Assembly (NCBI RefSeq): GCF_014203395.1
Contig: NZ_JACHIW010000001.1
Span: forward strand, 5,439,501-5,503,500
Direction: 5' to 3'
Source: Saccharopolyspora phatthalungensis
GTDB lineage: Bacteria > Actinomycetota > Actinomycetes > Mycobacteriales > Pseudonocardiaceae
DNA: 64,000 bases
The position numbers were made by a program, and so were the translations under genes. Positions within the stretch are counted from its first letter, which is position 1; the number at the start of each line of letters is the position of its first letter. The notes beneath the pieces were generated by a model. The model saw nothing but the letters and a program-made list of their open reading frames with translations. It did not search any database and was not told the origin of the DNA. This document shows, piece after piece, positions 1-34,217 of this stretch.

Positions 1-2447
1 GTGTCGAAGTCGCTGCGGGTTTGCCACGGGGGTGCGATCGCCGGAGTGAAGGCGTGCACGAACGGATGCATGTCCGTCGAAGACAGGTCGTGCTTTTCGT
101 ACCAGGTCGCCGCCGGCAGCAGTACATCGCTGAACAATCCGGTACTGGTCATCCGGAAATCCAGCGACACCAGCAGATCGAGCTTGCCCTCGGGCGCCTG
201 CGGGCGCCACGTGACGTCCCGGGGACGAAGTTCGGGCGGGACCTCCCCGGCACGCACGGCGGAGTCGGTTCCGAGGAGGTGCTTGAGGAAATACTCGTTG
301 CCTTTCGCCGACGACCCCAGCAGGTTCGCCCGCCACACCGTGAGCACGCGCGGCCAGTTCTCCGGGGCATCCGGGTCCGTGCAGGCGAAACGCAGCCGCC
401 CTGATCGCAGCTGCTCGGTCACGTACTGCGCGGGATCGTCTCCGGCGGCCCGTGCTTCGGCGGCGAGGTCGAGGGGGTTGCGGTTGAACGTGGGATAGGA
501 GGGCATCCAGCCCAGCCGGGCGGACTTCGCGAGGCAGTCGGCCATCGACATGCCGTGCAACGTGCCCGGCCCCAGCGGGTGCATCAGTTCGTCGGCGCCC
601 AGGGCGTCGTAGCGCCACTGATCGGTGGCCAGGTACCAGTAGGCGGTGCCGATCATCTGCCGTGGCGGCCGGGACCAGTCCGTGCCCCCTGCCAGGGTTG
701 CCCAGCCGGTGACCGGGCGGCACTTCTCCTGGCCGACGTAGTGGGCCCAGCCACCGCCGTTGACTCCCTGGCAGCCGGTCAGGGTCACTAGCGCCAGGAA
801 CGCGCGGTAGATGGTGTCGGAGTGGAACCAGTGATTGGTGCCCGCTCCCATGAGGATCATCGATCGCCCGCCCGATTCCTCCGCGTTGGCGGCGAATTCG
901 CGGGCCACGCGGACGGCCGTGGCAGCGGGCACGCCGGTGATTTCTTCCTGCCAGGACGGAGTGTGCGGTTCCGGGTCGCCGAAGCCGGTGGGCCACCGGC
1001 CGGGCAGCCTGTCCCGGGCGACGCCGTAGTGGGCGAGAACGAGATCGAACACCGTCGTGACCAGCTGCCCTCCGACCCGGAGCGCAGGTACGCCGCGCCG
1101 CATCGTGTGGCTGCCGTCGTCGAAACGGGCGAGCAGTACCTCCACTGGTTCGGTGCCGGGGTGTTCCAGCAGGCTCAACCGGGGTGTGACTCCGCCGAGG
1201 TCGAGATTCCATTTCCCGGCATTGTCGGCACCGAACCGGAAACCGAGACTGCCACCCGGCACATGCGGGCGGCCTGTGGCCTCTTCGATCACAACGGTCT
1301 TGAACTTCTCCGGATCGCCCGGAGCAGGATCGAGATCGGCGGCGGTGAGGAACTTGTCCGCGGCAAAGCCGTCCCCGGTGTCGCGCAGTGTCACCAGAAA
1401 CGGAAGATCGGTGTAGCGGCGGCAGTAATCCAGGAATCGGGGAGTGGGCCGCCGCACGAAGAACTCGGTGAGGATCACGTGTCCCATGGCCATCGCCAGT
1501 GCCCCATCGGTTCCGGGGTGCGGGGCGATCCAGGTGTCGGCGAACTTGGTGCTGTCGGCGTAGTCCGGGGACACCACGACGACCTTCTGCCCCCGGTAAC
1601 GGGCCTCGGTCATGAAATGCGCGTCCGGCGTACGAGTAACGGGGACGTTGGACCCCCACATCACCAAGTACGAGGTGTTCCACCAGTCCGCGGACTCCGG
1701 CACATCGGTCTGGTCGCCGAACACCTGCGGGGAAGCCACCGGAAGGTCGGCGTACCAGTCGTAGAACGACAGCATGGTTCCGCCGATCAGCGAGATGAAC
1801 CGTGCTCCGGCGGCGTGCGAGACCATCGACATCGCCGGGATCGGGGAGAACCCGGCGATCCGGTCCGGTCCATGCCGCCGGATCGTGTGCACGTGGGCCG
1901 CGGCGATGAGTTCGGCAGCCTCATCCCAGCCGGCGCGCACCAACCCGCCCTTGCCACGCGCCCGCTGATAGCGGCGGCGAGCTGCTGGATCATCGACGAT
2001 CGACCGCCATGCCTCCACCGGATCACCGGTAGAGGCTTTCGCCTTGCGGTACATCTCGAGCAGCACGCCGCGCACGTACGGGTAGCGCAGCCGGGTCGGC
2101 GAGTACGTGTACCAGGAAAACGCCGCACCACGCGGACAGCCTCGCGGCTCGTATTCCGGTGAGTCCGGTCCGACCGACGGGTAATCGGTCTCCTGCGCCT
2201 CCCAAGTGATGATCCCGTCCTTGACGTAAACCTTCCACGAACACGAGCCGGTGCAGTTCACCCCATGGGTGGAGCGCACCACCTTGTCGTGGCTCCACCG
2301 GTCCCGGTAGAAGACATCCCCCGCACGCCCGCCCTGATAGGTGATCGTGCGCAGATCATCGGACACCTTGCCCGGCCGCAGGAGCCTGCGGGTGCGTAGG
2401 AGCAGGTCCGACACCGGCCCGTCGAGACCCGCAGGACGCTGGTCCAC
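1..2447 (-). CDS. narG: Respiratory nitrate reductase alpha subunit (partial, 3' end outside window)
   Basis: This is the molybdenum-containing catalytic subunit that reduces nitrate to nitrite on the cytoplasmic side of the membrane. The complement reads through to the window edge. The N-terminal third has the NarG signature: SDDLRTI, a GGRAGDVFYRDRWSHDK stretch, then HGVNCTGSCSWKVYVKDGI, which carries the His and Cys ligands of the FS0 [4Fe-4S] cluster. It is followed by PEYEPRGCPRGAAFSWYTYSP and the molybdopterin-domain segments WGSNVPVTRTPDAHF and MGAGTNHWFHSDT. About 815 of the usual ~1230 residues are present. I chose GTG 2447 because a GGGGAGG site lies just upstream and an in-frame stop lies further out; GTG 2519 is an alternative. 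It is divergent from narK with about 134 bp between. narHJI would be expected outside the window. Confidence 0.95.
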   Translation of the reverse strand, partial: MDQRPAGLDGPVSDLLLRTRRLLRPGKVSDDLRTITYQGGRAGDVFYRDRWSHDKVVRSTHGVNCTGSCSWKVYVKDGIITWEAQETDYPSVGPDSPEYEPRGCPRGAAFSWYTYSPTRLRYPYVRGVLLEMYRKAKASTGDPVEAWRSIVDDPAARRRYQRARGKGGLVRAGWDEAAELIAAAHVHTIRRHGPDRIAGFSPIPAMSMVSHAAGARFISLIGGTMLSFYDWYADLPVASPQVFGDQTDVPESADWWNTSYLVMWGSNVPVTRTPDAHFMTEARYRGQKVVVVSPDYADSTKFADTWIAPHPGTDGALAMAMGHVILTEFFVRRPTPRFLDYCRRYTDLPFLVTLRDTGDGFAADKFLTAADLDPAPGDPEKFKTVVIEEATGRPHVPGGSLGFRFGADNAGKWNLDLGGVTPRLSLLEHPGTEPVEVLLARFDDGSHTMRRGVPALRVGGQLVTTVFDLVLAHYGVARDRLPGRWPTGFGDPEPHTPSWQEEITGVPAATAVRVAREFAANAEESGGRSMILMGAGTNHWFHSDTIYRAFLALVTLTGCQGVNGGGWAHYVGQEKCRPVTGWATLAGGTDWSRPPRQMIGTAYWYLATDQWRYDALGADELMHPLGPGTLHGMSMADCLAKSARLGWMPSYPTFNRNPLDLAAEARAAGDDPAQYVTEQLRSGRLRFACTDPDAPENWPRVLTVWRANLLGSSAKGNEYFLKHLLGTDSAVRAGEVPPELRPRDVTWRPQAPEGKLDLLVSLDFRMTSTGLFSDVLLPAATWYEKHDLSSTDMHPFVHAFTPAIAPPWQTRSDFD

Positions 2448-2581
2448 CCCGACCTCCCCTCCATGCTTGGTCGGGCTGCACGGACAGGTCGAGTCGCCGT
2501 CCGTGACCGTGTGGACCACAATGCGCCCTGGACCCGATTCGTGCAGCGCACGACACCTTCAGCCGGCTCAGAGGGGGTCTC

Positions 2582-3841
2582 GTGAGCGAGCACAGCGACT
2601 ACGCCGGAGAGGAGTCGGCCTCAGCGGAGGCGGCCCACGACATCCGGCATGGCGTAGCGAGCGAGCGGATTTCCGGCCGAGCGCGAATTGTGCTGGTGGT
2701 GGCCACCCTGGCCTTCCTGGTCAACTTCTGGGCCTGGGCACTGCTCGCCCCACTGGCACCATCACTGGGACAGAGCATGCGGCTGACGCCGTTCACCCAA
2801 GCCCTGCTGGTCGCGCTGCCGGTGATGATCGGATCACTCGGCCGGGTCCCGGTCGGCTCGCTCACAGACCGCTACGGCGCCCGCCCGATGTTCACCCTGT
2901 TCAGCGCGCTGACGATCATCCCGGTGCTCACCATCGGTTACTTGGGCCGTTCGATGCCGGTCCTCATGACCGGCGCGATCCTGCTCGGGGTGGGCGGCAC
3001 GACCTTCGCCATCGGCGTCCCGGCCGTCAACGCCTGGTTCCCCCGCAGGCGGCGCGGCATGGCCCTAGGCCTGTTCGGCCTCGGCACCGGCGGCACCGCC
3101 ATCGCCTCGTTCACGACCATCCCGTTGACCAAGACCTTCGGCCCAACCGCGCCGTTCAACACCGTGGCCTTCGCCCTGGCCGTGGTGGCCGGGCTGTGCT
3201 GGGCGTTGTTGCGTGACCCCGCCGACCGCGTGGCCCCGACCGAATCCATGATCCGCCGCACGACCGACACCCTGCGAATGCCGGTGACCTGGCAACTGGC
3301 GATCCTCTACGCGCTGACCTTCGGCGGGTTCGTGGCCTTCAGCGTCTACCTGCCCACCTACCTCAAGACCGCCTTCGACCTCGACCCAGCAGACGCGGCC
3401 TTCCGCACAGCTGGATTCATCGTGCTCGCCGTCCTCGCCCGACCCCTCGGGGGCTGGCTATCCGACCACCTCTCCGGCACCCACGTCCTCGGCGGATGCT
3501 GCGTGCTCGCCGGGCTCCTCGCGGCACTGGCATCGGTCGAACTGCCCTTGATCCCCATCGGCACGATCGCGTTCCTCAGCCTGGCCGCAGTACTCGGCGC
3601 CGGCGCTGGGGCCGTCTTCGCGCTCGTCGGCACACTCGCACCCGAAGGCAAGGTAGGAGCAGTCACCGGTGTCGTGGGCGCCGCCGGCGGCCTGGGTGGG
3701 TTCTTCCCGCCCCTGGTCATGGGCTCGATCTACGGAACCGTGGGCGACTACACCTACGGCCTGGTACTGCTGGCCGTCACCGCGATGCTCTGCGCCCTGC
3801 TGACCTACACCGCATTGCGACACAGAGCCACCACCGCATAG
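2582..3841 (+). CDS. narK: NarK-type nitrate/nitrite transporter (MFS)
   Basis: A 419-aa major facilitator protein that would import nitrate and/or export nitrite across the membrane. About 12 hydrophobic segments are visible after a short polar N-terminus. The MFS loop motif appears as GSLTDRYGARP. The NarK-family segment GVGGTTFAIGVPAVNAWFP is followed by RRRRGMALGLFGLGTGG, close to the nitrate signature of NarK1/NarK2 proteins. The GTG start is preceded by a GGGGGT site. It is divergent from narG, so the pair forms a nitrate respiration unit. In M. tuberculosis narK2 belongs to the DosR regulon. Transport direction cannot be read from sequence. Confidence 0.92.
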   Translation: MSEHSDYAGEESASAEAAHDIRHGVASERISGRARIVLVVATLAFLVNFWAWALLAPLAPSLGQSMRLTPFTQALLVALPVMIGSLGRVPVGSLTDRYGARPMFTLFSALTIIPVLTIGYLGRSMPVLMTGAILLGVGGTTFAIGVPAVNAWFPRRRRGMALGLFGLGTGGTAIASFTTIPLTKTFGPTAPFNTVAFALAVVAGLCWALLRDPADRVAPTESMIRRTTDTLRMPVTWQLAILYALTFGGFVAFSVYLPTYLKTAFDLDPADAAFRTAGFIVLAVLARPLGGWLSDHLSGTHVLGGCCVLAGLLAALASVELPLIPIGTIAFLSLAAVLGAGAGAVFALVGTLAPEGKVGAVTGVVGAAGGLGGFFPPLVMGSIYGTVGDYTYGLVLLAVTAMLCALLTYTALRHRATTA

Positions 3842-3992
3842 TCCGCGTCCGGCCGGTCTCAGGGCGCGACGGCGACCGGGTCCGCGCCTGGTGGCCGCCG
3901 GTCCGAACAGTGCGGGACGTCCATCGCGGGAGCACACTGCGGTGCGAGACCGGGTGTCGGGTCCGGCTCACCCCGGTCGCAAGGGGACTCCG

Positions 3993-5420
3993 ATGGGACG
4001 TCAGCAGCTGAGCGCACTTGACGTGGCGTTTCTGTGCTTGGAGCAGGAGACGACGCCGATGCATTTCGGCGCTCTCCTGATGTTCAGCGCACCGCCTGCA
4101 GCCGATCTCCGCAGGCTGGTGACGTTGCTGGGAGAGCGGGCAGGACGGTTACCACCGCTGCGTCAACGAGTTCGGTCGACGTGGTTTCCCCCAGGAGGCG
4201 CGACGTGGGTGGAGGAGCCTGGCTTTCGCATCGATGACCACCTGGCTCTGCACTACCTGGAACATCCGGGTGATCGCGAGGAGTTGATCGCTGTTGTCGC
4301 CGAACTCATGGCCCGCCCGCTGGAGTTGACCCATCCTTTGTGGCATCTGGAGGTGATCGGCGGGCTGGCCGACGGTGGCTTCGCCGTGCTGGCCAAGCTG
4401 CATCACGCCGTCTGCGACGGCCCCGGGGCAGTCGAGTTGGGTCTGGGTTTGTTCGACGGATTCACGGCGCCGGAACAACCTCCGGCACCATGTGAGGGTG
4501 GTTTCCGAGCTCGCGGTTTGGCTGCCGCGCGCTCAGCCAGCGACGTGCTGACCCACCCAGCCCGATTGATCGGAGGGGCCACGAAGGCGGCCGATCTGGT
4601 GAAGCAGGGCTACGAGGCAGCGGGGATCTTCTCAGCGATCGTCGGCGGAATCCGACGGCTCGATCCCGCCTCGCCGCTGCGGTGCGCCCACTGGCCCAGA
4701 AGACGGATCGAACTGTCCCGATTGAGCTTGTCAGACCTGCAGCGAGTTCGAGCGCTGCATGGGGGCACGATCAACGATGTCCTGCTGGCGCTGGTGGCAG
4801 GGGCACTGCGCGCGTGGCTCTCGTCGCAGGACTGCGATCTCGCGGGACGCACCGTGCGAGTCTTGGTGCCGGTCAACCTCCGTCAGGGCGGAGAATCCGG
4901 GTTCGGCCGCAACCAGGTGTCGGGCTATTTGTGCGAGCTGCCGGTGGGCGAGCCCGACCCGGTCAAGCGGCTGCACGCGATCCGCTCCGCGATGGATCGC
5001 AACAAAGCGGCCGGTCCCCGGCGAGGAGCCGGTGCCTTCCCCTTGCTTGCTGACCAGCTCCCACGGGCCGTGCATCGAATCGTGACACCGGCGGTCGGTG
5101 GCATGGCCCCTCTGCTGTACGACCTCGTCATCTCCAACGTGCCACTGCCCGCTGTCCCGCTGGCCCTGGGAGGCGCAGGACTGCGCGAGGTCTATCCCTT
5201 TGTTCCGCTCGCGACCGGACAAGCGATGGGCATCGCCGCCTGCAGCTATGGCGATGCCATGTGCCTGGGCATCTATGCAGACCCACGCACCGTGCCCGAC
5301 CTCGCGAACTTCGCCGACTCGCTGGAACGGGCATTGGATGAGCTCGATGGGTGCGTCGAAACGACGGAGCGTGGCCGATCCAAGCTCGGCAGCGGTGAGC
5401 ATCGAGAAATTCTGACCTAA
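3993..5420 (+). CDS. Wax ester synthase/diacylglycerol acyltransferase (WS/DGAT, Tgs family)
   Basis: A 475-aa bifunctional acyltransferase making triacylglycerol or wax ester from acyl-CoA at the membrane or lipid-body surface. It begins with the typical LSALDVAFLCLEQETTPMH and carries the catalytic HHxxxDG motif as KLHHAVCDGPG. Downstream family blocks are INDVLLALVAGALRAWL, RVLVPVNLRQ and the C-terminal YDLVISNVPLPAVPLAL. An upstream in-frame start exists at 3891, but ATG 3993 has an AAGGGGA site and matches the family N-terminus. The gene stands alone between narK and a hydrolase. In mycobacteria tgs1 is a hypoxia-induced DosR gene that builds storage fat, which suits the neighbourhood. 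Confidence 0.93.
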   Translation: MGRQQLSALDVAFLCLEQETTPMHFGALLMFSAPPAADLRRLVTLLGERAGRLPPLRQRVRSTWFPPGGATWVEEPGFRIDDHLALHYLEHPGDREELIAVVAELMARPLELTHPLWHLEVIGGLADGGFAVLAKLHHAVCDGPGAVELGLGLFDGFTAPEQPPAPCEGGFRARGLAAARSASDVLTHPARLIGGATKAADLVKQGYEAAGIFSAIVGGIRRLDPASPLRCAHWPRRRIELSRLSLSDLQRVRALHGGTINDVLLALVAGALRAWLSSQDCDLAGRTVRVLVPVNLRQGGESGFGRNQVSGYLCELPVGEPDPVKRLHAIRSAMDRNKAAGPRRGAGAFPLLADQLPRAVHRIVTPAVGGMAPLLYDLVISNVPLPAVPLALGGAGLREVYPFVPLATGQAMGIAACSYGDAMCLGIYADPRTVPDLANFADSLERALDELDGCVETTERGRSKLGSGEHREILT

Positions 5421-5520: not shown

Positions 5521-6528
5521 ATGTGGTGGTTCGGGACTGCGCGCGCGAATGACGTCGAATTTGAACCTGACGCCCAGGGATCGCTGGCGTCGGAAGGGCT
5601 CACCGTGACTGCATCGGACGGGGTGCCGCTGCACGCGGAAATCGTCGACAACGTCGCGAACGACGCGACCGTGATCTTCTGCCATGGCTACATGCTCGAC
5701 TCGCAGAGCTGGCACTTCCAGCGGGCGGCGCTGGCCGACCAGGCCCGGCTCGTGCTGTGGGACCAGCGGGGACATGGCCTGTCCGGGTGGGCAACACCGT
5801 CCAACGCCACCATCGACCAACTGGGTCAGGACCTCTACGCGGTCCTGCTAGCGACCGCCCCGCAGGGTCCGGTGGTGTTGGTCGGTCACTCGATGGGCGG
5901 GATGGCCATCCTGGGGCTCGCCGAGTCGCATCCCGAGCTCTTCGGTGACCGCGTGGTGGGCACCGCCCTCATCGCCACCTCCGCAGGCGGCTTGTCTGGA
6001 ATCACCCTGGGGTTGCCCGAGCCAGTAGCCCGCCTGCTGCACCAGGCCGTTCGCACCAGCTTGTCCCTGCTGCGTCGGCAACCACGCATGGTCGATGCCG
6101 TTCGCCGCGCGACTAGCCGCACGTCGTTACGGCTCACCCACCGCTACCTGTTTGCCGCACAGGTCCTGGAGTCTGTTGTCGAATCGACGGCCCGCCCGAT
6201 AGCCTCGACCCCGATTTCGGTGATCGCGGAATTCTTCCCCGAACTCGACACCTTCGACAAACGCACGGCGCTGTCGGCACTCGGAAAGATTCCCACGCTG
6301 ATCCTGGTCGGGGAACGAGACACGATCACGCCGGTAAGCCACAGCGAAGCCCTCGCCCGGGAAATCCTGGGGGCGGAAATGGTCGCCATCGCCGGTGCAG
6401 CGCACATGGTGATCCTGGAATCCCCACAAGGCGTCAACGCCCAACTCCAACGCTTGGTGGCACGCGTGACCCAACACAGCACCAGCTCCGGCGAGCAGCC
6501 CCGACAGGAATCGACAGGCTTAGCCTGA
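5521..6528 (+). CDS. Alpha/beta-hydrolase (lipase/esterase-like)
   Basis: A 335-aa alpha/beta-hydrolase. An oxyanion-hole region CHGYMLDSQSWHFQ leads to the strand and turn VLWDQRGHGLS. The nucleophile elbow is VGHSMGG (Ser), and the late catalytic region includes LILVGERDTITP (Asp) and GAAHMVILESP (His). There is no signal peptide or clear membrane anchor. The ATG follows a GT-rich stretch with a weak ribosome site. Its position behind a WS/DGAT gene and a DevR-like box suggests turnover of stored or membrane lipid; the substrate is unknown. No similar lid or cap domain could be assigned to a subfamily. Confidence 0.85.
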   Translation: MWWFGTARANDVEFEPDAQGSLASEGLTVTASDGVPLHAEIVDNVANDATVIFCHGYMLDSQSWHFQRAALADQARLVLWDQRGHGLSGWATPSNATIDQLGQDLYAVLLATAPQGPVVLVGHSMGGMAILGLAESHPELFGDRVVGTALIATSAGGLSGITLGLPEPVARLLHQAVRTSLSLLRRQPRMVDAVRRATSRTSLRLTHRYLFAAQVLESVVESTARPIASTPISVIAEFFPELDTFDKRTALSALGKIPTLILVGERDTITPVSHSEALAREILGAEMVAIAGAAHMVILESPQGVNAQLQRLVARVTQHSTSSGEQPRQESTGLA

Positions 6529-6996: not shown

Positions 6997-8460
6997 GTGG
7001 CACCGAAGACAGCCGGGCACACCGGCAACGTACACCACAACCTGGGAGTGCATGAGGTTGTGCTGCTGTTGCAAACCGACCCGCATCGTGGGCTGACCCA
7101 GCCCGAGGCGAGTCGACGCCGGAACGCTACGGGCTGAACTCGTTACCCCAGGCGCGCACTGCCGGTCCGGTCCTCCGGGTGGTGCGGCAACTGCACTACC
7201 CGCTGGTGTATCTGTTGCTGGTCGCGGGGGCGGTGGCGCTGGCGTTCGGGGAGGGTGTCGACGCGAGCGTGATCTTCGGTGTGGTGCTGCTGAACACGGC
7301 CGTGGGGTTCGTGCAGGAGTCGAAGGCCGAGGCGGCGCTGGACGCGCTGCGGGCGATGGTGCGTACCCACGCGAGGGTGGTGCGGGAGTGGACGGTTCCG
7401 TCCGAGGACCTGGTGCCAGGTGATGTGGTGCTGGTCGGGGTCGGGGACAAGGTTCCGGCGGATCTTCGGCTGATCCGGCTGACCAACTTGCGTGTCGACG
7501 AGTCCGCATTGACCGGCGAGTCGGTCCCGGTGGTCAAGGACGAGGTAACGCTGCCCGAGATGATCCCGGTGGCCACCGGTGCCGAAACCGAACTGGGCAA
7601 GATCCACCGGCTCGTCGGCGCCGCCGAGGAGCTGGCGACACCGCTGACCCGCAAGCTCTCCTAGGTCAGCAAGGTCCTCACCGTGGTCATCCTTGCTCTG
7701 GCAGCGGTGACCTTCGCGATCGGCGTGGCCCCGGGCCAGGGCGGTGGAGATGTTCACCGCAGCGGTGGCGTTGGCCGTGGGGGCCATCCCCGAGGGACTC
7801 CCAGCTGCGGTCACCATCACCCTGGCCATCGGTGTGGCGCGCATGGCCCGCAGACGGGCGGTGATCCGGCGGCTGCCTGCGGTGGAGACCCTGGGCAGCA
7901 CGACCGTGATCGGTTCGGACAAGACCGGCACGCTCACCGAAAACCAGATGACCGTCCGCACGGTATGGACGCCGGACGACCGGTTCGACGTGACCGGCTC
8001 GGGCTACGCCGCCGACGGAACCGTCCTCGACAGCACCGGCCAAGCCGAGGCGATGGTCAACAGCGAGGCGTTGCGTTGGTGTCTGCTTGCGGGCGCGTCC
8101 TGCAACGACGCCACACTCATCTCTCGTGATGGCAGACCAGGTGTGGTCGGCGACCCCACCGAGGGTGCCATGCTGGTGGTTGCGGGCAAGGCCGGTCTCG
8201 ATCTCGACACGGATGTCGCTCACGCGTTTCCGCGCACCGCTGTGATCCCGTTCAGCTCCGAACGCCAGTACATGGCCACCCTGCACGAAGAAGCCGCCCA
8301 TCACCGGTATGTGGTGTTCGCCAAGGGTGCGATCGAGCGGATTCTTGCGTTGTGCGCGGACGAGATGGCTGCCGACGGCACCGTCGAGCCGCTGGATCGG
8401 CAGGCAGTGGTCACGGCTGCTGACGATCTGGGCGGAGCGGCTCACCTCGCGCGCTGGTGC
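6997..8460 (+). pseudogene. ctpF: Decayed CtpF-like P2-type cation-transporting ATPase
   Basis: Segments from three frames align in order to mycobacterial CtpF. They include HEVVLLLQTDPHRGLTQPEA, then LHYPLVYLLLVAGAVALAFG, FVQESKAEAALDALRAMV, the actuator loop LTGESVPVVKD, and the helix with the ion-site turn GAIPEGLPAAVTITLA. The phosphorylation motif SDKTGTLTENQMTV and the nucleotide-domain pieces GDPTEGAMLVVAGKAG and IPFSSERQYMATLH follow. Lesions visible are a frameshift near 7122, a missing block of about 30 residues near 7560, and an amber codon at 7662 where the family has Trp. A second frameshift lies near 7735. The whole C-terminal half (rest of the P domain and TM5-10) is lost around 8450, where the convergent ACP operon begins. 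It cannot make a working pump. Confidence 0.88.
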
Positions 8461-8489
8461 CGGGGTTCGCGGCGACGTTACGGCCAACC

Positions 8490-8747
8490 TCATGTCCGGG
8501 TGGTGAGGAAGTCCACTGTGGAGCGCATTGTGGTGAGCTTGTCGTAGTCGTCTTCGTCGATGCGGATGCCGGCGGCGTTGCCGAGCGCTTCGACGAAGGT
8601 GAGGAAGTCCAGCGAGTCCAGTTCGAGTGCCTCGCGGAAGTTCTCGTGTTCGTCCAGGGTGTCGAGGTCGGCCCCGGGCATGGCCTTGCGCAGCGCGTCG
8701 TGCACGAGGTCGCGGGCGCGGTCCGGCGTGATCGGCTGGGGCATCAC
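8490..8747 (-). CDS. Acyl carrier protein
   Basis: An 85-aa phosphopantetheine carrier. The attachment serine sits in LELDSLDFLTFVEAL, the standard DSL motif at the start of helix II, within a four-helix ACP pattern. It is the last gene of the acs-E1-E1-E2 operon: its GTG/ATG start overlaps the E2 stop. The stop lies in sequence shared with the end of the convergent ctpF remnant. An ACP beside a 2-oxoacid dehydrogenase is unusual. It might accept the acyl group made by E2 or by the acetyl-CoA synthetase; that is inference. Confidence 0.88.
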   Translation of the reverse strand: MMPQPITPDRARDLVHDALRKAMPGADLDTLDEHENFREALELDSLDFLTFVEALGNAAGIRIDEDDYDKLTTMRSTVDFLTTRT

Positions 8748-10036: not shown

Positions 10037-10037
10037 C

Positions 10038-20492: not shown

Positions 20493-20511
20493 TAAGGTGA
20501 GCCTTGCCTAT
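20493..20511 (+). promoter_or_regulatory. Putative IdeR/DmdR iron box
   Basis: TAAGGTGAGCCTTGCCTAT matches 14 of 19 positions of the actinobacterial DtxR-family consensus TTAGGTTAGSCTAACCTAA. It lies 43 bp before the start of the FTR1 iron permease gene, a natural place for iron-dependent repression. Confidence 0.65.
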
Positions 20512-20553
20512 TTTCTTGTGGTGTCTCTCGGGCCACGGGCAAGGAGCGTGCGC

Positions 20554-21399: not shown

Positions 21400-21809
21400 C
21401 GATCATCGCCCGCACCCTGGTTCCCGTGTTCTGCGCCGTCCTGCTCGCTGGCTGCGGCGGGCAACCCGCCGGCAACGCACCGGGCGCGATCATCGTGCAG
21501 GCCGGGGACAACAGCTGCGCGCTGTCGGCGACCTCCGCGCCTGCCGGCACGATCCGTTTCGACGTCACCAATGTCGGTAGCCAGGTCACCGAGTTCTACC
21601 TCTACGGCGAGGGCGACCGGGTGATCAGCGAGGTCGAGAACATCGGCCCCGGCCTGACCCGGCAGCTCGTCGTCGAGGTGCCGCAGAGCGGCAAGTACAC
21701 CACCGCGTGCAAACCTGGAATGCAGGGCGAGAGCATCCGCGAAGTTCGCCGTCACCGCGCCGTCGAACAGGTGATCACCGTGCGACAACCGCGGGCCGCG
21801 GACTCATGA
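21396..21809 (+). CDS. EfeO-like cupredoxin lipoprotein
   Basis: A 137-aa secreted lipoprotein. The signal peptide ends in the lipobox LLAGC (Cys about residue 20). The rest is an EfeO-type cupredoxin domain: VQAGDNSCALSATSAPAG, VGSQVTEFYLYGEGDRVISE and a late KYTTACKPGMQGESI. The M75 peptidase-like helical domain of full EfeO is missing. The last 25 residues look unlike the family; shifting frame by one near 21735 would give a natural KFAVTAP strand and a nearby stop, so an indel is possible. It is translationally coupled to the permease and should deliver iron to it. Confidence 0.8.
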   Translation: MTIIARTLVPVFCAVLLAGCGGQPAGNAPGAIIVQAGDNSCALSATSAPAGTIRFDVTNVGSQVTEFYLYGEGDRVISEVENIGPGLTRQLVVEVPQSGKYTTACKPGMQGESIREVRRHRAVEQVITVRQPRAADS

Positions 21810-24758: not shown

Positions 24759-24767
24759 CGGGTCGCC

Positions 24768-25023: not shown

Positions 25024-25491
25024 TCAGGAGGCCGGGGTCGCTCCATCCGCCAGGACCGGCACGGGTTCGACCTCGACGGAAACGTTCAGGCCCGATCGAA
25101 CGCTTTGGGTCACAGCGCAGTAGTCCTCGAACAGGTCGACGCATCGGTGCATCCGGCCGACATCATCTTCGGCGACCTCGGGGTGGATGTGCACGGTGAT
25201 ACCGCCCAGTCGCAGATGCCCACGCTCGTCCCGGGCGAAGGAGACATCAGCCGACGTGCTCATGCCGTACACCGTGATCCGCGCTTTGCGCAGGCAGAAC
25301 AACGCACTCGCGGACAGGCAGTTGGCGATGGCGGCGCCGAGCAGCCGCGCGGCATTGGGGCCCGCTTCGGCGCCAAGCGGTTCCGGCTCGTCCACGACCA
25401 GAGGGGGCACTCCCGGTTGGTGGAAATCGACGAGGAATTGGTAGCCCTCCTGCAGCGACAGGGTCACCGTGACCTCTTCCTGCTCTGCCAT
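25024..25491 (-). CDS. OsmC/Ohr-family peroxide-resistance protein
   Basis: A 155-aa OsmC-fold protein. The first peroxidatic cysteine is in [20 protein letters not shown]. The second conserved Cys lies in [16 protein letters not shown], as is typical of OsmC/YhfA-like members. GGTGGAG precedes the ATG. It would reduce organic hydroperoxides using a dithiol. The gene is divergent from the USP gene at 25686 with about 194 bp between, and sits inside the stress cluster. Confidence 0.85.
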
Positions 25492-27619: not shown

Positions 27620-28030
27620 TCACTTTCCCTTGCGCGCCACCGGGATTTCCTTCCGCATCTCGACTTCACGTCGTGGGATGCGGATGGTGAGGATGCCGGC
27701 TTCGTACTCGGCGTTGATGTCGTCGGTGTTGCAGCTGGTCGGCAGCAGCAGGGTGCGGCTGAACGAGCCGTAGAAGAACTCGCTGTGCCGGTCGGTGCGT
27801 TCTTCGTGCTTGCGTTCGGCGTTGATCTTGAGCTGGTTGCCTTCGACGTTGATGTGGATGTCCTTGTCGGGGTCCACCCCGGGCAGTTCGCAGCGGATGA
27901 CGAACTCGTCCTTCTCGGCGTAGGTCTCCACCCGCATCGCGTGCCGTTCACCGAAAGGCCATTCGGTTTCGAACATCTGGAAGATGTCGGGCAGGCCCAT
28001 GCTCGGGCGGGGCAGCAAGTGGTGGGTCAT
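27620..28030 (-). CDS. Hsp20/alpha-crystallin small heat-shock protein
   Basis: A 136-aa small heat-shock protein. The alpha-crystallin domain covers about residues 35-125, with ELPGVDPDKDIHINVEGNQL, FSRTLLLPTSCNTDDINAEY and EAGILTIRIPR. The C-terminal IPV matches the I-x-V tail that links oligomers. ATG 28030 follows GGAGG by five bases; ATG 28042 is upstream. It is the counterpart of HspX/Acr, the DosR marker protein, and sits next to an Acg-type nitroreductase exactly as hspX and acg do in M. tuberculosis (Rv2031c/Rv2032). Confidence 0.93.
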   Translation of the reverse strand: MTHHLLPRPSMGLPDIFQMFETEWPFGERHAMRVETYAEKDEFVIRCELPGVDPDKDIHINVEGNQLKINAERKHEERTDRHSEFFYGSFSRTLLLPTSCNTDDINAEYEAGILTIRIPRREVEMRKEIPVARKGK

Positions 28031-28176
28031 GGTGTCCTCCATAAGGACTGGTTGGAGCGTGCTTGAGGGTCCGGCATGCGCGTGGCGAGGAATAGTGCCG
28101 ACCGGCCCCGTTCCTGCCGGATGCGTCGCGGGTACCCGGGCGGTGTTGGGCGTGAAACCGGTGGTGCGGGGGTGTC

Positions 28177-29172
28177 GTGATGGGCAGATCGGTCCCGTCG
28201 CAGGAGACGATGCGTTCGGCGCTGGCCTTGGCCTGCCGGGCGCCGTCGGTGCACAACAGCCAGCCGTGGCGGTGGAAGCTGGCCGAGCATTCGGTGCACC
28301 TCTACCTTGACCGTTCCCGGCTGTTGGGGGTTATCGATCCGACCGGGCGGGAGATGGTGATCAGTTGCGGCGCGGTGCTGAACCACGCACGGATCGCGTT
28401 CGCCGGCGAGGGGTGGCAGGCCCGGGTGCATTGGTTGCCGAACCCGGCGCAACCGGAGCACCTGGCGTCGATCGAGTTTCGCGAGCTCACCGAGGTCGAT
28501 CCGCACGTTGAGACGTTGGCGGCTGCGGCGGCGGACCGGCGCAGCGACCGGCGACCGTTTCTGACCGACCCGGTGCCGCAGGAGGTTCTCGCGCCGTTGC
28601 GGGAGGTCGCGCGGGTGGAGGATTGCACGCTCACCTTCGCCCTGGAAGACCGGGAACGCCGGGAGCTGGAACTGGCGATCGAACACGCCGGATCGGAGGA
28701 ACGTCAACGGCCCGAGTATCGGGAGGAGCTTGCTGCTTGGGCGGGCCGACACGCCTCCCCGGAAGGTGTCCCGGTCCGCAGCATCCCGGCCGAACACCTG
28801 CGCGGCATGCCCGAGCGGGACTTCGCGCTGGCCGCCGAAGGAGAGCTGGCGGTGCCGATCCTGGACGACGGCGCGGTGCTCGCAGTGCTGTCGACCCGCG
28901 GCGACACCTACGACAGCTGGCTGGCCACGGGGGAGGCCCTGAGCGCGGTGCTGCTCAGCGCGACGGAGCAGGGGCTGGCGACCTGCCCGTTGAGCCAGAT
29001 CGCCGAGGTCGCCGAGTCCCGCAACCTGGTCCGGGAACAGATTCTCGGCGGCAGCGGCTATCCGCAGATGGCGATCCGGATCGGGTGGCCGGTGACGCGC
29101 GAGTTCCCCGGACCGCTCACGCCTCGCCGCCCGGTGTCGGAGTTCGTCGAACCGTTGTTCCCGAAGGAATGA
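28177..29172 (+). CDS. Acg-like nitroreductase-fold protein
   Basis: A 331-aa protein of the Acg family (Rv2032, Rv3127, Rv3131), a flavin-sequestering offshoot of the nitroreductases. Family marks: ALACRAPSVHNSQPWRW near the N-terminus, YLDRSRLLGVIDPTGREMVIS, DRRSDRRPF, and late GEALSAVLLSATEQGLATCP and GYPQMAIRIGWP. GTG 28177 and ATG 28180 are adjacent candidates. It is divergent from hsp20 with about 147 bp between and convergent with ppsA (stops one base apart). No substrate is known for the family. Confidence 0.92.
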   Translation: MMGRSVPSQETMRSALALACRAPSVHNSQPWRWKLAEHSVHLYLDRSRLLGVIDPTGREMVISCGAVLNHARIAFAGEGWQARVHWLPNPAQPEHLASIEFRELTEVDPHVETLAAAAADRRSDRRPFLTDPVPQEVLAPLREVARVEDCTLTFALEDRERRELELAIEHAGSEERQRPEYREELAAWAGRHASPEGVPVRSIPAEHLRGMPERDFALAAEGELAVPILDDGAVLAVLSTRGDTYDSWLATGEALSAVLLSATEQGLATCPLSQIAEVAESRNLVREQILGGSGYPQMAIRIGWPVTREFPGPLTPRRPVSEFVEPLFPKE

Positions 29173-29173
29173 C

Positions 29174-31426
29174 TCAGGTCCGGGTCCTGGCCGCTTCCAG
29201 GAGGATCTTGCGCTCGGCGACGTCGACGGCCTGCCGCACGGCGGGCACGGCGTCGGGGTTGACCGAGATCGACGTGATGCCCAGCCGAACGAGGTGTTCG
29301 GCGAACTCCGGATTATTGGAGGGCGCCTGACCGCACAGCGACGAGGTGATCCCCGCCCGGCGAGCGGAGCCGATGATATTGCCTATGGCGTCCAGCACCG
29401 CGGGGTCGGATTCGTCGAACAGCGGTGCGCACAGCTCGGAGTCGCGGTCGACGCCGAGGACGAGCTGGGTGAGGTCGTTGCTGCCGATGGACACACCGTC
29501 GATGCCCAGACGCGCGTACTCGGGAAGCCAGTACTGCACCGACGGGACTTCGGCCATGACCCAGCGGTGCAGGCCGCGGGAGTCGGCGAGCCGGCTGCGG
29601 TCGACTTCGGCCAGGCATTGCTGGAGTTCCCAGCGGGTGCGCACGAACGGGATCATCAGGTGCAGGTTGGGTGTCTGCTCCCGGACCCGTGCCAATGCTT
29701 CGAGTTCCATCCGGAACAGTGACGGGTCGCGGACGTAGCGGTAGCAGCCGCGATATCCGATCATCGGGTTGTCCTCGACCGGTTCGAAGTCCTCCCCACC
29801 GGTGAGGTGCCGGAATTCGTTGCTGCGGAAGTCCGCCGCGCGGTAGATGACCGGCCGTGGGGCGAAAGCACTGGTGATTGTGGACAGCGCTGCCACCATC
29901 GCGTTGATCGCCTTCTCCTCGTCGCCGCGGGCGAGGATGCGGCCGGGATGCTCACCGCCGAGCGCGTCGGTGAGCAGGAACTCCGCGCGCAGCAGCCCCA
30001 CGCCATCGACCGGCAGGGCCGCAGCGTGTTCGGCCTGGTCGGACATGGCCAGGTTGACGTAGATCCGCGTGGCCAACGGCTGCACCCCGGCTGCCGGAGG
30101 TTCGGCTACGTGGGCGGGCCGGTGGATCTCGCTGATACTGCCTTCGATCACGGTGCCGTTCGCACCGTCAACGGTGACCTGCATGCCGTCACGCAACGTC
30201 GTGGTAGCGGTGCGGGTACCCACCACGCACGGCAGCCCGAGCTCGCGGGCGACGATAGCGGCGTGGCAGGTCATGCCGCCACTGTCGGTGACCAACGCGG
30301 CCGCCTTGCGGATCGCGGGAAGCCAGTCCGGTGCGGTCATCGGCGCGACCAGCACTTCACCCGTCTGCAAGGCCCCCGCCTCCGCCGGGGACTGCATGAC
30401 CCGGACCGCACCCGATGCGGTGCCGAACGAGGCGCCGAGGCCGGAAACGAGGATCGCGCCCGTCTTGAGGCGCCGGTCGAGGGTGGTGACCGGGCGGGAT
30501 TGCACCAGCCACCACGTGCCGTCGGCGATCGCCCATTCCACATCCTGCGGGCTGCCGTAGTGCTGCTCCACCCCGACCAGCAGCCGAGCCAGGTCGCGCA
30601 ACTCGATATCGCCGAGCACTCGTTGATCGGTCTCGGTCGGGCTCACCTCGACGCGGGCCTGCCGCCCGTTGGCGTCGCGGACGATCTTGTGGGTCTTGCG
30701 CCCGACAGCTACGTGTGTGAGGCGGGAATCGGCTTTCCGGATCGTGTAGGTGTCGGGTTCCACGGTGCCGCCGACGACGGATTCGCCGAGGCCGAATCCG
30801 GCCTCGACCAGCATTTCGTCACGCGCTCCGGTGGCAGGGTTGGCGGTGAAGGCCACGCCGGAACGGTCCGCGTCGACCATTTGCTGCACGATCACTGCCA
30901 TCGCCGGGGTCTCGCGCACCCCTTGCGCCGTCCGGTAGACGATAGCCCGCGGGCTGAACAGCGACGCCCAGCAGTCCACCACTCGGGCGGCCAACTCCTC
31001 GGCGCCGACGACGTTGGTGAAGCTCTCGTTGACACCGGCGAACGAGATGTCCGGCGCATCCTCAGCCGTGGCCGACGAGCGCACCGCCACCCGCGGGTCG
31101 CCTTCGAGCTCCTCGTAGGCCTCGAGCAGCGCGGCATGCACCGCGGATGCCAGCCCCGCTTGATGCACCAACCGCTGCAACCGAGCACAGGTCTCGGCGA
31201 GTCGGTCTTGGTCATCGGCGACCCGGACGGCCTCGTCCAGCACACGGTCGAGTTCGGGCTCCACACCTGCCTGCGACATGCAGACGCGGTAGGCATCGGC
31301 GGTCACAACAAACCCCGGGGGCACCGGAAGACCCGCACCGGTCAACTCCCCAAGATTGGCCCCCTTGCCGCCTGCCACGGGCACTTCGGCAAGGCTGAGC
31401 TCGGAGAACCATCGAATCCACGGCAT
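29174..31426 (-). CDS. ppsA: Phosphoenolpyruvate synthase
   Basis: A 750-aa PEP synthase (pyruvate, water dikinase). The N-terminal ATP-grasp part has [37 protein letters not shown] and [20 protein letters not shown]. The swivelling phosphohistidine is in [17 protein letters not shown]. The C-terminal PEP/pyruvate barrel has [42 protein letters not shown] and the active-site SLCGQAPSN. It makes PEP from pyruvate, opening gluconeogenesis from the C2/C3 units released from lipid. A DUF1918 gene is 8 bp upstream in the same direction. Confidence 0.94.
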
Positions 31427-31433
31427 CGCGATC

Positions 31434-31661
31434 TCACCGGGACACGGCGGGAACGTTCACCTTCAAATGCTGGGGAAGAAGCCGCTCGAGGTGGGTGTCC
31501 GGTCCGGGGAAGAACAGGGTCACGCGGCCGTCGTCGAGCCAGTGCACCAGGTAGGGCGGCTCGCCATCCGGGCCGTGCACCTCGATGATCTTTCCCTTGC
31601 GGCGATGACCATCCAGGTGGACCGGTTCGGCGATCAGCCATTCACCCACTTCCGCGCGCAT
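31434..31661 (-). CDS. DUF1918 small protein
   Basis: A 75-aa protein beginning [18 protein letters not shown], then [20 protein letters not shown] and a [13 protein letters not shown] tail ([13 protein letters not shown]). This is the DUF1918 pattern, an SH3-like beta barrel common in actinobacteria and often next to USP or ppsA-type stress genes. Its function is unknown. It is probably cotranscribed with ppsA (8 bp spacing). Confidence 0.85.
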
Positions 31662-31808
31662 GATGCTGCTCCCTCTTCAGATGCATCCGCTTCGAGTCTC
31701 GTGTCCGCGAGCCGGTGGTGACGAGAGCCGAAGGACTCCAATGCGGCCACTCGATCGAGTTGTGCGGTGCCTGTGCGGTCGTACGGTCGAGCCGGGGAGG
31801 AGGCGAAT

Positions 31809-32660
31809 ATGCGCAAGCCCAACGTCGTCGGCGTCGATGGGTCGGAGTCGGCGCTGGACGCGGTGCGGTGGGCGGCACGCGATGCGGTGCTGCACCGCGT
31901 CCCGCTGCGGTTGATCTCCGTTGGACCGAAACCTGCTCCGGATACCGCGCGAGAGGTGAACAGGAGTGACCGAGACGGCTGGTTGTCGGCCGCAGCTCAG
32001 GTCGCCACTGATACCGCTCCAGGCGTTGAGACGACCTCGGAGCTCCGTGCGGGTATCCCGTACGCCGTTCTCGTGGAGGAATCCGCCCAGGCTCGCCGGA
32101 TGGTGGTGGGGATCCGGGGCCTCGGTGAGCGCACCGGCCTGCCGGTCGGCTCCACCGCCGAGACGGTCGCCATACATGCGAAGTGCCCGGTCGTGGTGGT
32201 GCGCGGCCGTGTGCCCGAACCGGCTGAAGCGAGTCCGGTCATCGTCGGCGTCGACGGATCCCGTGTGGGGGAGGCCGCCGCGGCCGTCGCTTTCGATGAG
32301 GCATCCGCCCGCCGCGTTCCGTTGGTGGCCGTGCACGTCTGGATCGACGTGGCGGTCGAGCCCTGGTTCGCCATCGACGACGACCGGGAGTGGGCGGAGA
32401 TCGACGAGACCGAGCGCGCGGTGCTCGCCGAGCGCTTGGCCGGCTGGCAGGAGAAGTACCCGGACGTCGAGGTGCTGCGCGTGGTGGAACGGGACCGGCC
32501 GGTGCGCTACCTGGTCGAGCACGCCAAGCACGCGCAGCTGATCGTCGTAGGAAGCCGAGGCCGGGGCGGCATGAGCGGAATGCTGCTGGGCTCGACCAGC
32601 CGCGCCCTGCTGCACACAGCCCCGTGCCCGGTGCTCATCGCCCGGACAGCCGGGCTCTAA
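31809..32660 (+). CDS. Universal stress protein, double UspA domain
   Basis: A 283-aa tandem USP. Domain 1 begins NVVGVDGSESALDAVRWAAR; its ATP loop is degenerate (VGIRGLGERTGLPVGSTAET). Domain 2 begins VIVGVDGSRVGEAAAAVAFD and has an intact loop, VGSRGRGGMSGMLLGSTSRA, then CPVLIAR. ATG 31809 has a GGGGAGGAGG site. It lies 35 bp before the Rv2004c-like gene on the same strand; in M. tuberculosis USP gene Rv2005c neighbours Rv2004c, so the pairing is conserved. Confidence 0.92.
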   Translation: MRKPNVVGVDGSESALDAVRWAARDAVLHRVPLRLISVGPKPAPDTAREVNRSDRDGWLSAAAQVATDTAPGVETTSELRAGIPYAVLVEESAQARRMVVGIRGLGERTGLPVGSTAETVAIHAKCPVVVVRGRVPEPAEASPVIVGVDGSRVGEAAAAVAFDEASARRVPLVAVHVWIDVAVEPWFAIDDDREWAEIDETERAVLAERLAGWQEKYPDVEVLRVVERDRPVRYLVEHAKHAQLIVVGSRGRGGMSGMLLGSTSRALLHTAPCPVLIARTAGL

Positions 32661-32695
32661 CCAGTGTGGACGATCGACTATGCGGGGGACGCAGA

Positions 32696-34183
32696 ATGGT
32701 GACCAGGCCCGGAACCTCCCCGGCGCGTTTCGTCGCACCGAACAGCGTCGGCATCGCCCAGAGCCACTGCGCGGTGGTGGTGTTCATCGGCGATCACGCC
32801 TACAAGCTCAAGAAGCCGGTCGATCTCGGCTTCCTCGACTTCAGCACGGTGGCCGCGCGGGAACGGGCCTGTCGGCGTGAGCTGGAACTGAACCGCCGAC
32901 TCGCGCCCGACGTCTACCTCGACGTCGCTCAGGTCCTCGACGGCCATGGCAAGACCTGCGACTGGCTGGTGGTGATGCGCCGAATGCCCGCCTCGCGGCG
33001 GTTGTCGACGCTGGTCACGCAAGGCGTGGACGTGCACGCCGATGTGGAGAAGCTGGCACGCATGCTTGCTTCGTTCCACAGCACCGCACGACGCGGACCG
33101 GAGATCGATGCCGCGGGGAGCTCGGCGGCGCTGCGCAAGCGGTGGGTCGACAACTTCGCTGGAGCCGAAGAGTTCGTCGGCGCCGTCATCGATCGCACTC
33201 TGTTCGACGAGATCGTTGAACTGACGCTCCAGTACCTCGACGGGCGCGCACCGCTCTTGGAGGAACGCGTTCGCCGGGGATGCATTGTGGACGGCCACGC
33301 GGATCTGCTCGCCGAGGACATCTTCTGCCTGCCCGACGGTCCACGGGTGCTGGACTGCCTGGAATTCGACGACGCGCTGCGCTACGTCGATGGCCTCGAC
33401 GACGCGGCATTCCTTGCCATGGACCTCGAACGCCTCGGCGCCCCCGGCCTGGCGCAGGATTTTCTGGCTTGGTACCGCGAGTTCTCCGCCGCCCGTAGCA
33501 CCACATCTCTGGCCCACCATTACGTGGCCTACCGGGCATTCGTCCGCGCCAAGGTCGCGTGCCTCCGGCACGCACAAGGCGTGGCGGAGGCCGCCTCGGA
33601 CGCCCAGCGGTTGACCATATTGACACACCGGCATCTGCGCGCCGCGCAGATCCGGCTGGTCCTGGTGGGCGGGCTGCCGGGCACAGGGAAGACGACCGTC
33701 GCCGGAGCGCTGGCCGACCGAATGGGGGCAGTCCTGCTGCGCACGGACCAGATTCGTCGGGAACTACCCGGCACCGCCGGGCTCGCCGCACACGCAGGCT
33801 ATGGCCGCGGCCTGTACGACAGCGGGAACGTCCACAACACCTATCAGGAGATGCTCGACCGCGCGCGAACTTTGCTCTCCCATGGGGAAAGCGTCGTGCT
33901 GGACGCGAGTTGGAGCAGCTCCGAGGAGCGCGAGCCGGCCAGGGCGGTGGCCCGGGAAACCTTCGCGGTGCTGACCGAACTGTGCTGCGTGACACCGACC
34001 GAGATCGCCGAACCCCGCATCACCGCGCGAGTCGGTGACGCCTCGGACGCGACTGTGGAGATCGCTGCCCAGATGAACCGCCACTTCGCCTCCTGGCCCG
34101 AAGCCACCCACATCGACACCTCGGGCCGCCCCGACACCGCGATCGCGACAGCTTGGGAGCCCATCGAACGCAGCTTCAGGTAA
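32696..34183 (+). CDS. Rv2004c-like aminoglycoside-phosphotransferase-fold/P-loop kinase fusion
   Basis: A 495-aa two-domain protein. The N-terminal half (to about residue 300) resembles the APH kinase fold, with YKLKKPVDLGFLDFSTVAAR and an HxDL-type segment DGHADLLAEDIF. The C-terminal part is a P-loop kinase with VGGLPGTGKTTVAGALADR (about residues 320-340), LRTDQIRRELPG and VVLDASWSS. The layout equals M. tuberculosis Rv2004c (DosR regulon, 498 aa). ATG 32696 follows GGGGGAC. The biochemical substrate of this family is unknown. A strong hairpin follows the stop. Confidence 0.88.
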   Translation: MVTRPGTSPARFVAPNSVGIAQSHCAVVVFIGDHAYKLKKPVDLGFLDFSTVAARERACRRELELNRRLAPDVYLDVAQVLDGHGKTCDWLVVMRRMPASRRLSTLVTQGVDVHADVEKLARMLASFHSTARRGPEIDAAGSSAALRKRWVDNFAGAEEFVGAVIDRTLFDEIVELTLQYLDGRAPLLEERVRRGCIVDGHADLLAEDIFCLPDGPRVLDCLEFDDALRYVDGLDDAAFLAMDLERLGAPGLAQDFLAWYREFSAARSTTSLAHHYVAYRAFVRAKVACLRHAQGVAEAASDAQRLTILTHRHLRAAQIRLVLVGGLPGTGKTTVAGALADRMGAVLLRTDQIRRELPGTAGLAAHAGYGRGLYDSGNVHNTYQEMLDRARTLLSHGESVVLDASWSSSEEREPARAVARETFAVLTELCCVTPTEIAEPRITARVGDASDATVEIAAQMNRHFASWPEATHIDTSGRPDTAIATAWEPIERSFR

Positions 34184-34186
34184 GGA

Positions 34187-34217
34187 CCGGTGCCCGTGTG
34201 GGAGGGACGGGCACCGG
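34187..34217 (+). terminator. Hairpin after the Rv2004c-like gene
   Basis: CCGGTGCCCGT and ACGGGCACCGG form a perfect 11-bp stem with a 9-base loop four bases after the stop codon. There is no U-run, as is common in actinobacteria. It marks the end of the dormancy-type island. Confidence 0.75.

Follow-up and report, generated by a model that had tools for sequence, protein, structure and literature searches.

In Streptomyces coelicolor, the OsdR/OsdK region spans SCO0167 to SCO0219 and OsdR recognises the palindrome AGGGCCGATCGGCCCT; control by OsdR is backed by electrophoretic mobility shift assays (EMSA) and mutant microarray data in those parts of the 2016 account on which we draw (PMC5069765). 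The DosR (DevR) regulon of Mycobacterium tuberculosis comprises about 50 genes in nine dispersed blocks, according to the portion of PMC5309233 used here. We analyse a window of 64,000 nucleotides from Saccharopolyspora phatthalungensis (contig C1, 5439501-5503500; genome of 8.54 Mb), the first 34 kb of which (window 1-34217) had been described in an earlier note, from the letters of the DNA, as a DosR-type dormancy island outside mycobacteria. We find that this is the best reading of the locus: the 34 kb stretch forms the right-hand portion of a region of about 85 kb (island A, about 5.389-5.474 Mb of C1) that is very probably a DosR-type dormancy island, with a DosR/DosS pair inside it, enriched OsdR-type sites and clustered relatives.

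A clear precedent has been published in the S. coelicolor OsdR region, and the system described here is a multi-copy, shuffled variant of a kind already known. Within the parts of the S. coelicolor account compared, the likeness extends to DosR/DosS orthologues among clustered universal stress protein (USP) genes, a nitroreductase-family gene, narG2HJI2 and a nitrate transporter, and to the 16-bp palindrome AGGGCCGATCGGCCCT ahead of many units. A pyruvate phosphate dikinase is annotated there and a phosphoenolpyruvate (PEP) synthase is identified here by a curated model; both are PEP-forming enzymes clustered with the regulator, USPs and nitrate reductase. Further genes here are those for a wax ester synthase/diacylglycerol acyltransferase (WS/DGAT), HAD-OtsB, GH65, polyphosphate kinase 2 (PPK2), FTR1, acetate-CoA ligase with E1/E2, and CtpF, a comparison that covers only part of the S. 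coelicolor region. Unlike S. coelicolor, this genome has two large islands and a mini-island together with a second, stand-alone DosR-Acg-DosS locus, and gene order differs between related genomes; the system is known here from sequence alone. The M. tuberculosis regulon, as far as it is described in the portion used, likewise contains DosR, DosS/DosT, the nitroreductase-type Rv2032 and Rv3131, Hsp-X, USPs, NarK2, a diacylglycerol acyltransferase, a nicotinamide-recycling protein and the hibernation factor Rv0079 (PMC5309233). In contrast to that regulon, the genes here are gathered in islands, and the Streptomyces-type 16-mer is enriched, the mycobacterial 20-mer not clearly so.

No dosR or dosS gene was found in the window, as the earlier note had said, and a search of the whole genome places a pair in the same island, about 46-49 kb to the left. 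HisKA_3 has nine matches in the genome, one of them at 5392925, about 46 kb left of the window, in a DosS-like kinase with the architecture GAF-GAF-HisKA_3-HATPase. This protein matches the solved structures 2vzw (3.5e-61), 2w3d (8.8e-55), 3zxq (5.5e-30) and 3zxo (2.8e-28). Its first GAF domain aligns to DevS 2w3d (E 8.8e-55) with the histidine of HPPMR retained, and its kinase end matches the entries named DosT (3zxq) and DevS (3zxo). We take the matched DevS and DosT structures to be of mycobacterial source and the HPPMR histidine to be the heme ligand His149 of DosS. The DosR-like regulator, at 5390020-5390670, matches DevR 3c3w across residues 1-208 (E 8.9e-85), with TVKNYVSRLLAKLG unchanged. 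An Acg-type gene sits between the two, so that island A contains a dosR-acg-dosS module; a second, stand-alone DosR-Acg-DosS module lies at about 4.234-4.238 Mb. Island A combines a DosR-family regulator (outside the window, inside the island), a DosS/DosT-type kinase with the retained histidine and enriched sites with the core members of a DosR/OsdR regulon, namely Acg-type flavoproteins, Hsp20, USPs and nitrate transport; for the last of these the match to the NarK model falls short of the cut-off.

Candidate operators were scored with three matrices. The first was built from nine published S. coelicolor sites and the consensus (10 sequences); the second (Table 1 matrix) from all 25 distinct sequences of Table 1 in PMC5069765, one of which is printed twice and was used once; and the third (relatives' matrix) from 27 sites taken from relatives only, leaving out two sites of genome G009, three of the mini-island of this genome on contig C2 (ownC2) and repeats of one identical site. 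The control was the intergenic DNA (71.9 kb) of 20 stretches of 20 kb. With the first matrix at 10 bits, 9 sites fall in 10.76 kb of island intergenic DNA as against 5 in the 71.9 kb of control (Fisher p 1.1e-5); the corresponding figures for coding DNA are 6 in 74.2 kb of island and 12 in 327.8 kb of control. The Table 1 matrix gives 7 sites in 10.48 kb of island and 7 in the 71.9 kb of control at 9 bits (p 8e-4), and its 4 island sites at 10 bits are equalled or exceeded by 2 of 500 column-shuffled matrices. Applied to ten relatives' islands and the mini-island at 10 bits, it finds 23 sites in 31.3 kb inside and 5 in 74.4 kb outside (p 1e-8), and none of 500 shuffled matrices reaches the count inside. 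With the relatives' matrix at 12 bits, island A has 8 sites and the control 1 (0 of 1000 shuffled matrices get to 8), and the window part has 3 sites, a number reached by none of 1000 shuffled matrices at that score. OsdR-type palindromes are enriched between the genes of island A, modestly with the full published matrix and strongly with the relatives' matrix.

The three window sites each lie ahead of called starts. The palindrome AGAGGCCAACGGCTCT (13833..13848) is 65 bp ahead of the called acetate-CoA ligase start, and the identical 16-mer occurs 65 bp ahead of the copy of this operon in a second island (island B, below). The second, AGTGCCGACCGGCCCC (28094..28109), lies between the divergent hsp20 (-60) and acg (-108) genes and scores 14.5 bits with the first matrix and 13.9 with the relatives' matrix. 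The third, AGAGCCGAAGGACTCC (31724..31739), lies between the DUF1918-PEP synthase pair (-71) and the USP-Rv2004c pair (-77). AGAGGCCAACGGCTCT and AGAGCCGAAGGACTCC score 13.0 and 12.6 bits with the relatives' matrix and are absent among the sites of at least 6 bits of the first matrix. A box ahead of Hsp20 is also present in G008, G012, G013 and G019, and one at the pair of USP (hyp264) and fructose-1,6-bisphosphatase (FBPase) genes in island A, island B and G012. The top-scoring box, AGGGCCGATGGGCCCT (genome 5411681-5411696), is flanked on one side by a minus-strand USP and on the other by the conserved portion of an acetyl-CoA-ligase gene; the gene caller extends that open reading frame (ORF; 5410562-5414479) over the opposite-strand USP, and the box was counted as coding throughout.

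Several results weigh against a DosR-controlled island. At 10 bits the Table 1 matrix finds 4 island and 4 control sites (p 0.012), one of the island four being in the window part, and 30 of 500 shuffled matrices attain this island-to-control ratio; in the relatives, 2 of 500 attain the in-to-out ratio. Two of the three window sites are visible only with the relatives' matrix, and at 10 bits 4 of 1000 shuffled versions of it attain the count of three. That matrix is independent of this genome, not of shared ancestry; its sites were first chosen with the S. coelicolor matrix, and the island limits in relatives were drawn by eye from gene matches. Sites are uneven among the relatives' islands, with 7 in G012, 5 in G013, one each in five others and none in G011 (first matrix, 10 bits). 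The island dosR was found to have no site ahead of it, in which it differs from S. coelicolor osdR, and nothing of at least 7 bits stands ahead of the intact ctpF, PPK2, GH65, FTR1 or narG. The published Table 1 sites are themselves predictions, with EMSA tests for only some of them, in the part of the source used (PMC5069765).

The earlier note had proposed scoring upstream regions with a DevR matrix, and here the outcome divides: OsdR-type sites are enriched, the mycobacterial 20-mer is not clearly so. A mixed matrix that includes five DevR-type forms does not enter the counts. The 20-bp DevR consensus was tried and replaced by the S. coelicolor matrix; in 145.5 kb, observed counts against shuffled means are 20 and 35.8 at score 20, 8 and 11.3 at 21, 4 and 3.0 at 22, and 1 and 0.2 at 23. 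This too counts against the island reading; a mycobacterial 20-bp box is not required for the OsdR type. The best DevR-consensus site is at window 5444-5463, ahead of the alpha/beta hydrolase gene.

That boxes stand ahead of only part of the units, with one to three in the window part depending on the matrix, would suit a general stress-gene neighbourhood that is governed for the most part by sigma factors, CRP, redox sensors or the like, and in which DosR drives few promoters. We consider this unlikely given the dosR-acg-dosS module inside island A and the box enrichment in island A, in the relatives' islands and, modestly with the Table 1 matrix, in island B.

The distribution of USP domains addresses chance proximity of common families in a large genome. 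Large genomes generally contain many genes for USPs and P-type ATPases. Of 76 USP domain matches in this genome, 25 fall in island A (1% of the genome; 0.75 expected by length), 34 in island B, 3 at 605-613 kb of contig C2 and 14 elsewhere. The three islands, about 2% of the genome, hold 62 of the 76 (1.5 expected), an excess of about forty-fold; two of the matches, both in island B, are under the Pfam cut-off, and the domains are often paired, so that binomial p-values overstate the significance. The 25 domains of island A group into 15 genes, five in the window (seven domains) and ten in the left half. With this concentration, and with much of the set clustered again, in another order, in island B and in relatives, we give chance practically no weight.

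Island B, at 3.721-3.802 Mb of C1, is a second cluster of USP, Acg, Hsp20 and acetate-CoA-operon genes, with 43 matches to island A proteins at 26 to 97% identity, among which there is no match to DosR. Its 31 shared genes follow the order of island A weakly (rho 0.35; 13 conserved adjacencies). In 17.1 kb, the relatives' matrix finds 7 sites at 12 bits and the Table 1 matrix 4, the latter a modest excess (p 0.05). The mini-island on C2 (605-613 kb) carries a USP, Hsp20, an OtsB half, a USP and two Acg-type genes, and two boxes of at least 10 bits (first matrix) lie between divergent genes.

Similar clustering is present in related genomes, dense and reordered in several members of the genus and in G033, from another genus. 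For HAD-OtsB, the closest named relatives are Saccharopolyspora subtropica (76%) and Saccharopolyspora kobensis (69%), a ranking that may lack the records of this genome or of one very close to it. Of 22 genomes of the genus, counting this one, 17 carry HAD-OtsB (E 1e-60 or better, several partial) and 17 an Hsp20 of at least 63% identity. Among 120 genomes of the family, HAD-OtsB occurs in 9 (this genome and two more of the genus included), Hsp20 in 10 and PEP synthase in 27. Cluster sizes were counted from tblastn matches, dropping those that cover less than 30-40% of the query and including weak ones below 50% identity. The G012 cluster has 35 matches over about 46 kb and that of G013 has 22, both with DosR inside; G033 has 33, G002 24, G017 22, G018 19 and G008 18 (both on short contigs), G009 17, G019 14, G003 14 and G021 12. 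Smaller clusters of 7-9 matches occur in G015, G004 and G011, and G006 has 4 and 13 at two places. No island surrounds the DosR genes of G005, G006, G014 and G021 in the neighbourhoods fetched.

For gene order, matches below 50% identity were dropped. Order relative to island A is weak in the larger clusters (rho 0.11 in G013, 0.16 in G012, 0.18 in G018, 0.04 in G002, 0.35 in G033, 0.39 in G017, 0.25 in G008 and 0.53 in G009) and closer in G006 (0.96, 12 genes), ownC2 (1.0, 6), G015 (1.0, 6), G004 (0.83, 6) and, moderately, G019 (0.75, 13). Shuffling is incomplete, since at least 4 adjacencies are conserved in 10 of 14 regions, where about 2 are expected at random; the remaining four regions keep 2. 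To guard against paralogy being mistaken for shuffling, the order test was repeated against islands A and B; most larger clusters match island A best in content and neither island closely in order. The stand-alone DosRS region is collinear with those of G005, G006, G014 and G021 (19, 22, 15 and 13 shared genes), with rho 1.0 and all adjacencies kept.

The earlier note left open whether the module had moved or been kept together. A mobile genomic island, recently spread by horizontal transfer along with the DosRS pair, would account for the patchiness of HAD-OtsB (17 of 22 genus genomes, 9 of 120 family genomes), the dense version in G033, the extra island copies in one genome and a DDE transposase in the left half of island A. 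It would also fit the tree of 23 DosR-like proteins (matches of at least 48% identity and 90% length, five duplicates removed), which places the island DosR copies outside the clade of the examined collinear stand-alone DosRs. That clade (99/96) has 11 members, namely the stand-alone copies examined in this genome, G005, G006, G014 and G021 and six whose neighbourhood was not examined; it omits the island DosRs of this genome, G012 and G013, the copy in the G003 cluster and G019_C6, which belongs to a DosR-Acg-DosS module without a large island. However, the island copies, the copy in the G003 cluster, the clade of 11 and G019_C6 all lie within a single clade of 16 (97/98) drawn entirely from the genus. 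G019_C4, another such module, is outside it, and 8 of the tree's 20 inner forks are open.

Composition also speaks against recent transfer, the GC content of island A (0.67-0.69 in 10 kb steps) being that of 20 control stretches (0.675, standard deviation 0.011). No integrase was found among the scanned island proteins, which are part of the total, and the one integrase that the window does contain (46909-47943) belongs to a low-GC stretch of its own; no tRNA was found in the window. HAD-OtsB identity tracks the RecA score within the genus (rho 0.82, 13 genomes; 0.65 with G033 added), RecA being 97-99% conserved and so a rough yardstick only. Because HAD-OtsB identity follows RecA relatedness, the sequences favour mainly vertical inheritance with shuffling and duplication; recent transfer we judge quite improbable.

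The genes of the window were assigned by Pfam and NCBIfam scans (Pfam is silent on a number of proteins), and all gene types named for 1-34217 by the earlier note were found. At the left edge, the 5' two thirds of narG (nitrate reductase alpha subunit) occupies 1..2414 on the minus strand (Molybdopterin 1.1e-59 on 3-2519); the called gene runs to window -1212. Gene calls at 5435270-5441914 cover narG and the next three genes, outside the window, which from order and size are taken as narH, narJ and narI. On the plus strand follow a NarK-family nitrate/nitrite MFS transporter (2582..3841; MFS_1 9e-46; TIGR00886 4e-55, 187.3 bits, under the cut-off of 311.7), WS/DGAT (3891..5420, start uncertain; the piece 4209-5420 matches WS_DGAT_cat at 3.6e-34 and WS_DGAT_C at 5.1e-26) and an alpha/beta hydrolase (5521..6528; Abhydrolase_1 2.8e-25). 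The ctpF gene named earlier is right as to family and not intact: a broken CtpF-like P-type ATPase (7179..8547, plus; E1-E2_ATPase and Cation_ATPase pieces) consists of fragments at 7179-7664 (161 aa) and 7744-8547 (267 aa), adjoining the acetyl-CoA operon, and an intact CtpF-like copy lies upstream of the window. At the matching place, stop-to-stop frames of 916-953 codons are open in G002, G012, G019 and G033.

The acetyl-CoA operon, probable from its gene spacing, runs from 8490 to 13809 (minus) and encodes a phosphopantetheine protein, E2, E1-beta, E1-alpha and acetate-CoA ligase (NF003313 883.7 bits, cut-off 729). It is followed by a copper-type, CopA-like P1B ATPase (13943..16375, plus; TIGR01511 587.5 bits, cut-off 397) and PPK2 (16536..17396, plus; PPK2 1e-100; TIGR03707 366.2 bits, cut-off 301.8). 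Then come a GH65 glycoside hydrolase/phosphorylase (17420..19849, minus; Glyco_hydro_65m 6.6e-133), a one-domain USP (19861..20475, minus; Usp 2.1e-33), FTR1 iron permease with a cupredoxin (20497..21809, plus; FTR1 2.9e-61, Cupredoxin_1 4.6e-7) and a fusion of a beta-phosphoglucomutase-like HAD domain with OtsB, trehalose-6-phosphate phosphatase (21804..23369, minus; Trehalose_PPase 1.2e-52; T6PP 175.5 bits, cut-off 68.05; PGMB-YQAB-SF 153.1 bits, slightly under the cut-off of 153.35). Rv2006 joins HAD-OtsB and GH65 domains. The earlier note equated this pair with Rv2006; both are present, as separate genes with the USP, FTR1 and cupredoxin genes in between, and they are neighbours in eight relatives' regions.

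Further right lie an MgtC/DUF4010 membrane protein assigned by Pfam (23487..24758, minus), an OsmC-like protein (25024..25491, minus; OsmC 6.2e-12) and three USP genes, at 25509-26138 (plus; Usp 1.7e-28), 26256-26702 (plus; Usp 6.8e-31) and, with two domains, 26725-27564 (minus; Usp 2.9e-49). Hsp20 of the alpha-crystallin type (27620..28042, minus; HSP20 5.2e-21) is divergent from an Acg/Rv3131-family FMN-binding oxidoreductase (28177..29172, plus; NF047509 325.8 bits, cut-off 199). PEP synthase (29174..31426, minus) is borne out by TIGR01418 (771.8 bits, cut-off 739.75), with a DUF1918 protein as the first gene ahead of it (31434..31661, minus; DUF1918 6.6e-25). The stretch ends with a two-domain USP (31767..32660, plus; Usp 3.1e-48) and a protein with a C-terminal AAA_33 kinase domain (32390..34183, plus; called start 32696; AAA_33 9.3e-22), which we take to be Rv2004c-like.

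In the left half of island A, where part of the proteins were scanned, family scans identify a molybdopterin oxidoreductase, which we read as formate-dehydrogenase-like, an acetyl-CoA-ligase/GNAT protein, a nicotinate phosphoribosyltransferase-family protein, the intact CtpF-like ATPase, FBPase and a ribosome-hibernation (S30AE) protein, and Pfam a CBS protein and DUF3040 and Rv2632c-like proteins. There are also three further nitroreductase/Acg-type genes, one of them at 5402793, and a USP at 5403852; one of the other two nitroreductase/Acg-type genes scores under the cut-off of the curated Acg model. The CBS, CtpF and OtsB-GH65 proteins presumably pair with members of the M. tuberculosis regulon. 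The DDE-type transposase gene lies at genome 5398353-5399672.

Gene content changes to the right of 34.7 kb. A lanthipeptide-type cluster at window 36086-40980 encodes a lantibiotic dehydratase N-terminal protein, a LanC-like cyclase and a third protein in which a dehydratase C-terminal domain is combined with a PCMT methyltransferase domain. The low-GC stretch at 45000-63700 (GC 0.584 at 45-55 kb), in which the phage-type integrase lies, has ORFs of 1277, 558, 577 and 753 aa with no Pfam match above cut-off and is possibly a separate mobile element.

By analogy with its orthologues, the DosS-like kinase would sense loss of oxygen, or nitric oxide (NO), via heme in its first GAF domain and phosphorylate the DosR-like regulator. 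Phosphorylated DosR would bind the 16-bp palindromes RGGGCCGAWCGGCCCY, mostly 60-110 bp ahead of called start codons, and jointly induce many short transcription units. The co-induced set would include nitrate respiration, the formate-dehydrogenase-like enzyme, lipid storage, polyphosphate, PEP synthase, FBPase, acetate-CoA ligase with its dehydrogenase complex, ribosome hibernation, Hsp20, USPs and Acg-type flavoproteins. Such a set fits survival without oxygen: it has redox enzymes of the nitrate and formate type, stores of lipid and polyphosphate, enzymes of gluconeogenesis and acetyl-CoA metabolism, a hibernation factor, a chaperone and USPs. In this proposal each unit carries its own box, and order could therefore change while the neighbourhood stays.

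We infer that clustering is under selection. More tentatively, and with greater doubt than confidence, we suggest that the DosR regulon exists here as multi-copy islands in which much of the membership and the chromosomal closeness are conserved and order is largely free, selection keeping nearness to the targets and to dosR and not operon structure. Nearness might be kept, for instance, if the genes share a chromosome domain that responds to hypoxia, or if self-contained promoter-gene cassettes are transferred together. No paper on such islands in Saccharopolyspora was found among titles and the starts of abstracts, in a search that mostly leaves out subscription journals. As far as we have seen, what is new is the presence of multiple islands in one genome, an island DosRS beside a stand-alone pair, and a conserved but differently ordered neighbourhood.

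These findings suggest that the DosR system represents, outside pathogens, an old actinobacterial programme for hypoxia and NO, and the likely members, among them the acetate-CoA ligase/dehydrogenase operon, PEP synthase, FBPase and the hibernation factor, hint at the purpose of dormancy metabolism. Natural differences in order make true regulon members testable, as genes that keep a box wherever they are placed, and allow one to ask whether bacteria select closeness of co-regulated genes apart from operons. In soil hosts such tests are possible without the tuberculosis organism.

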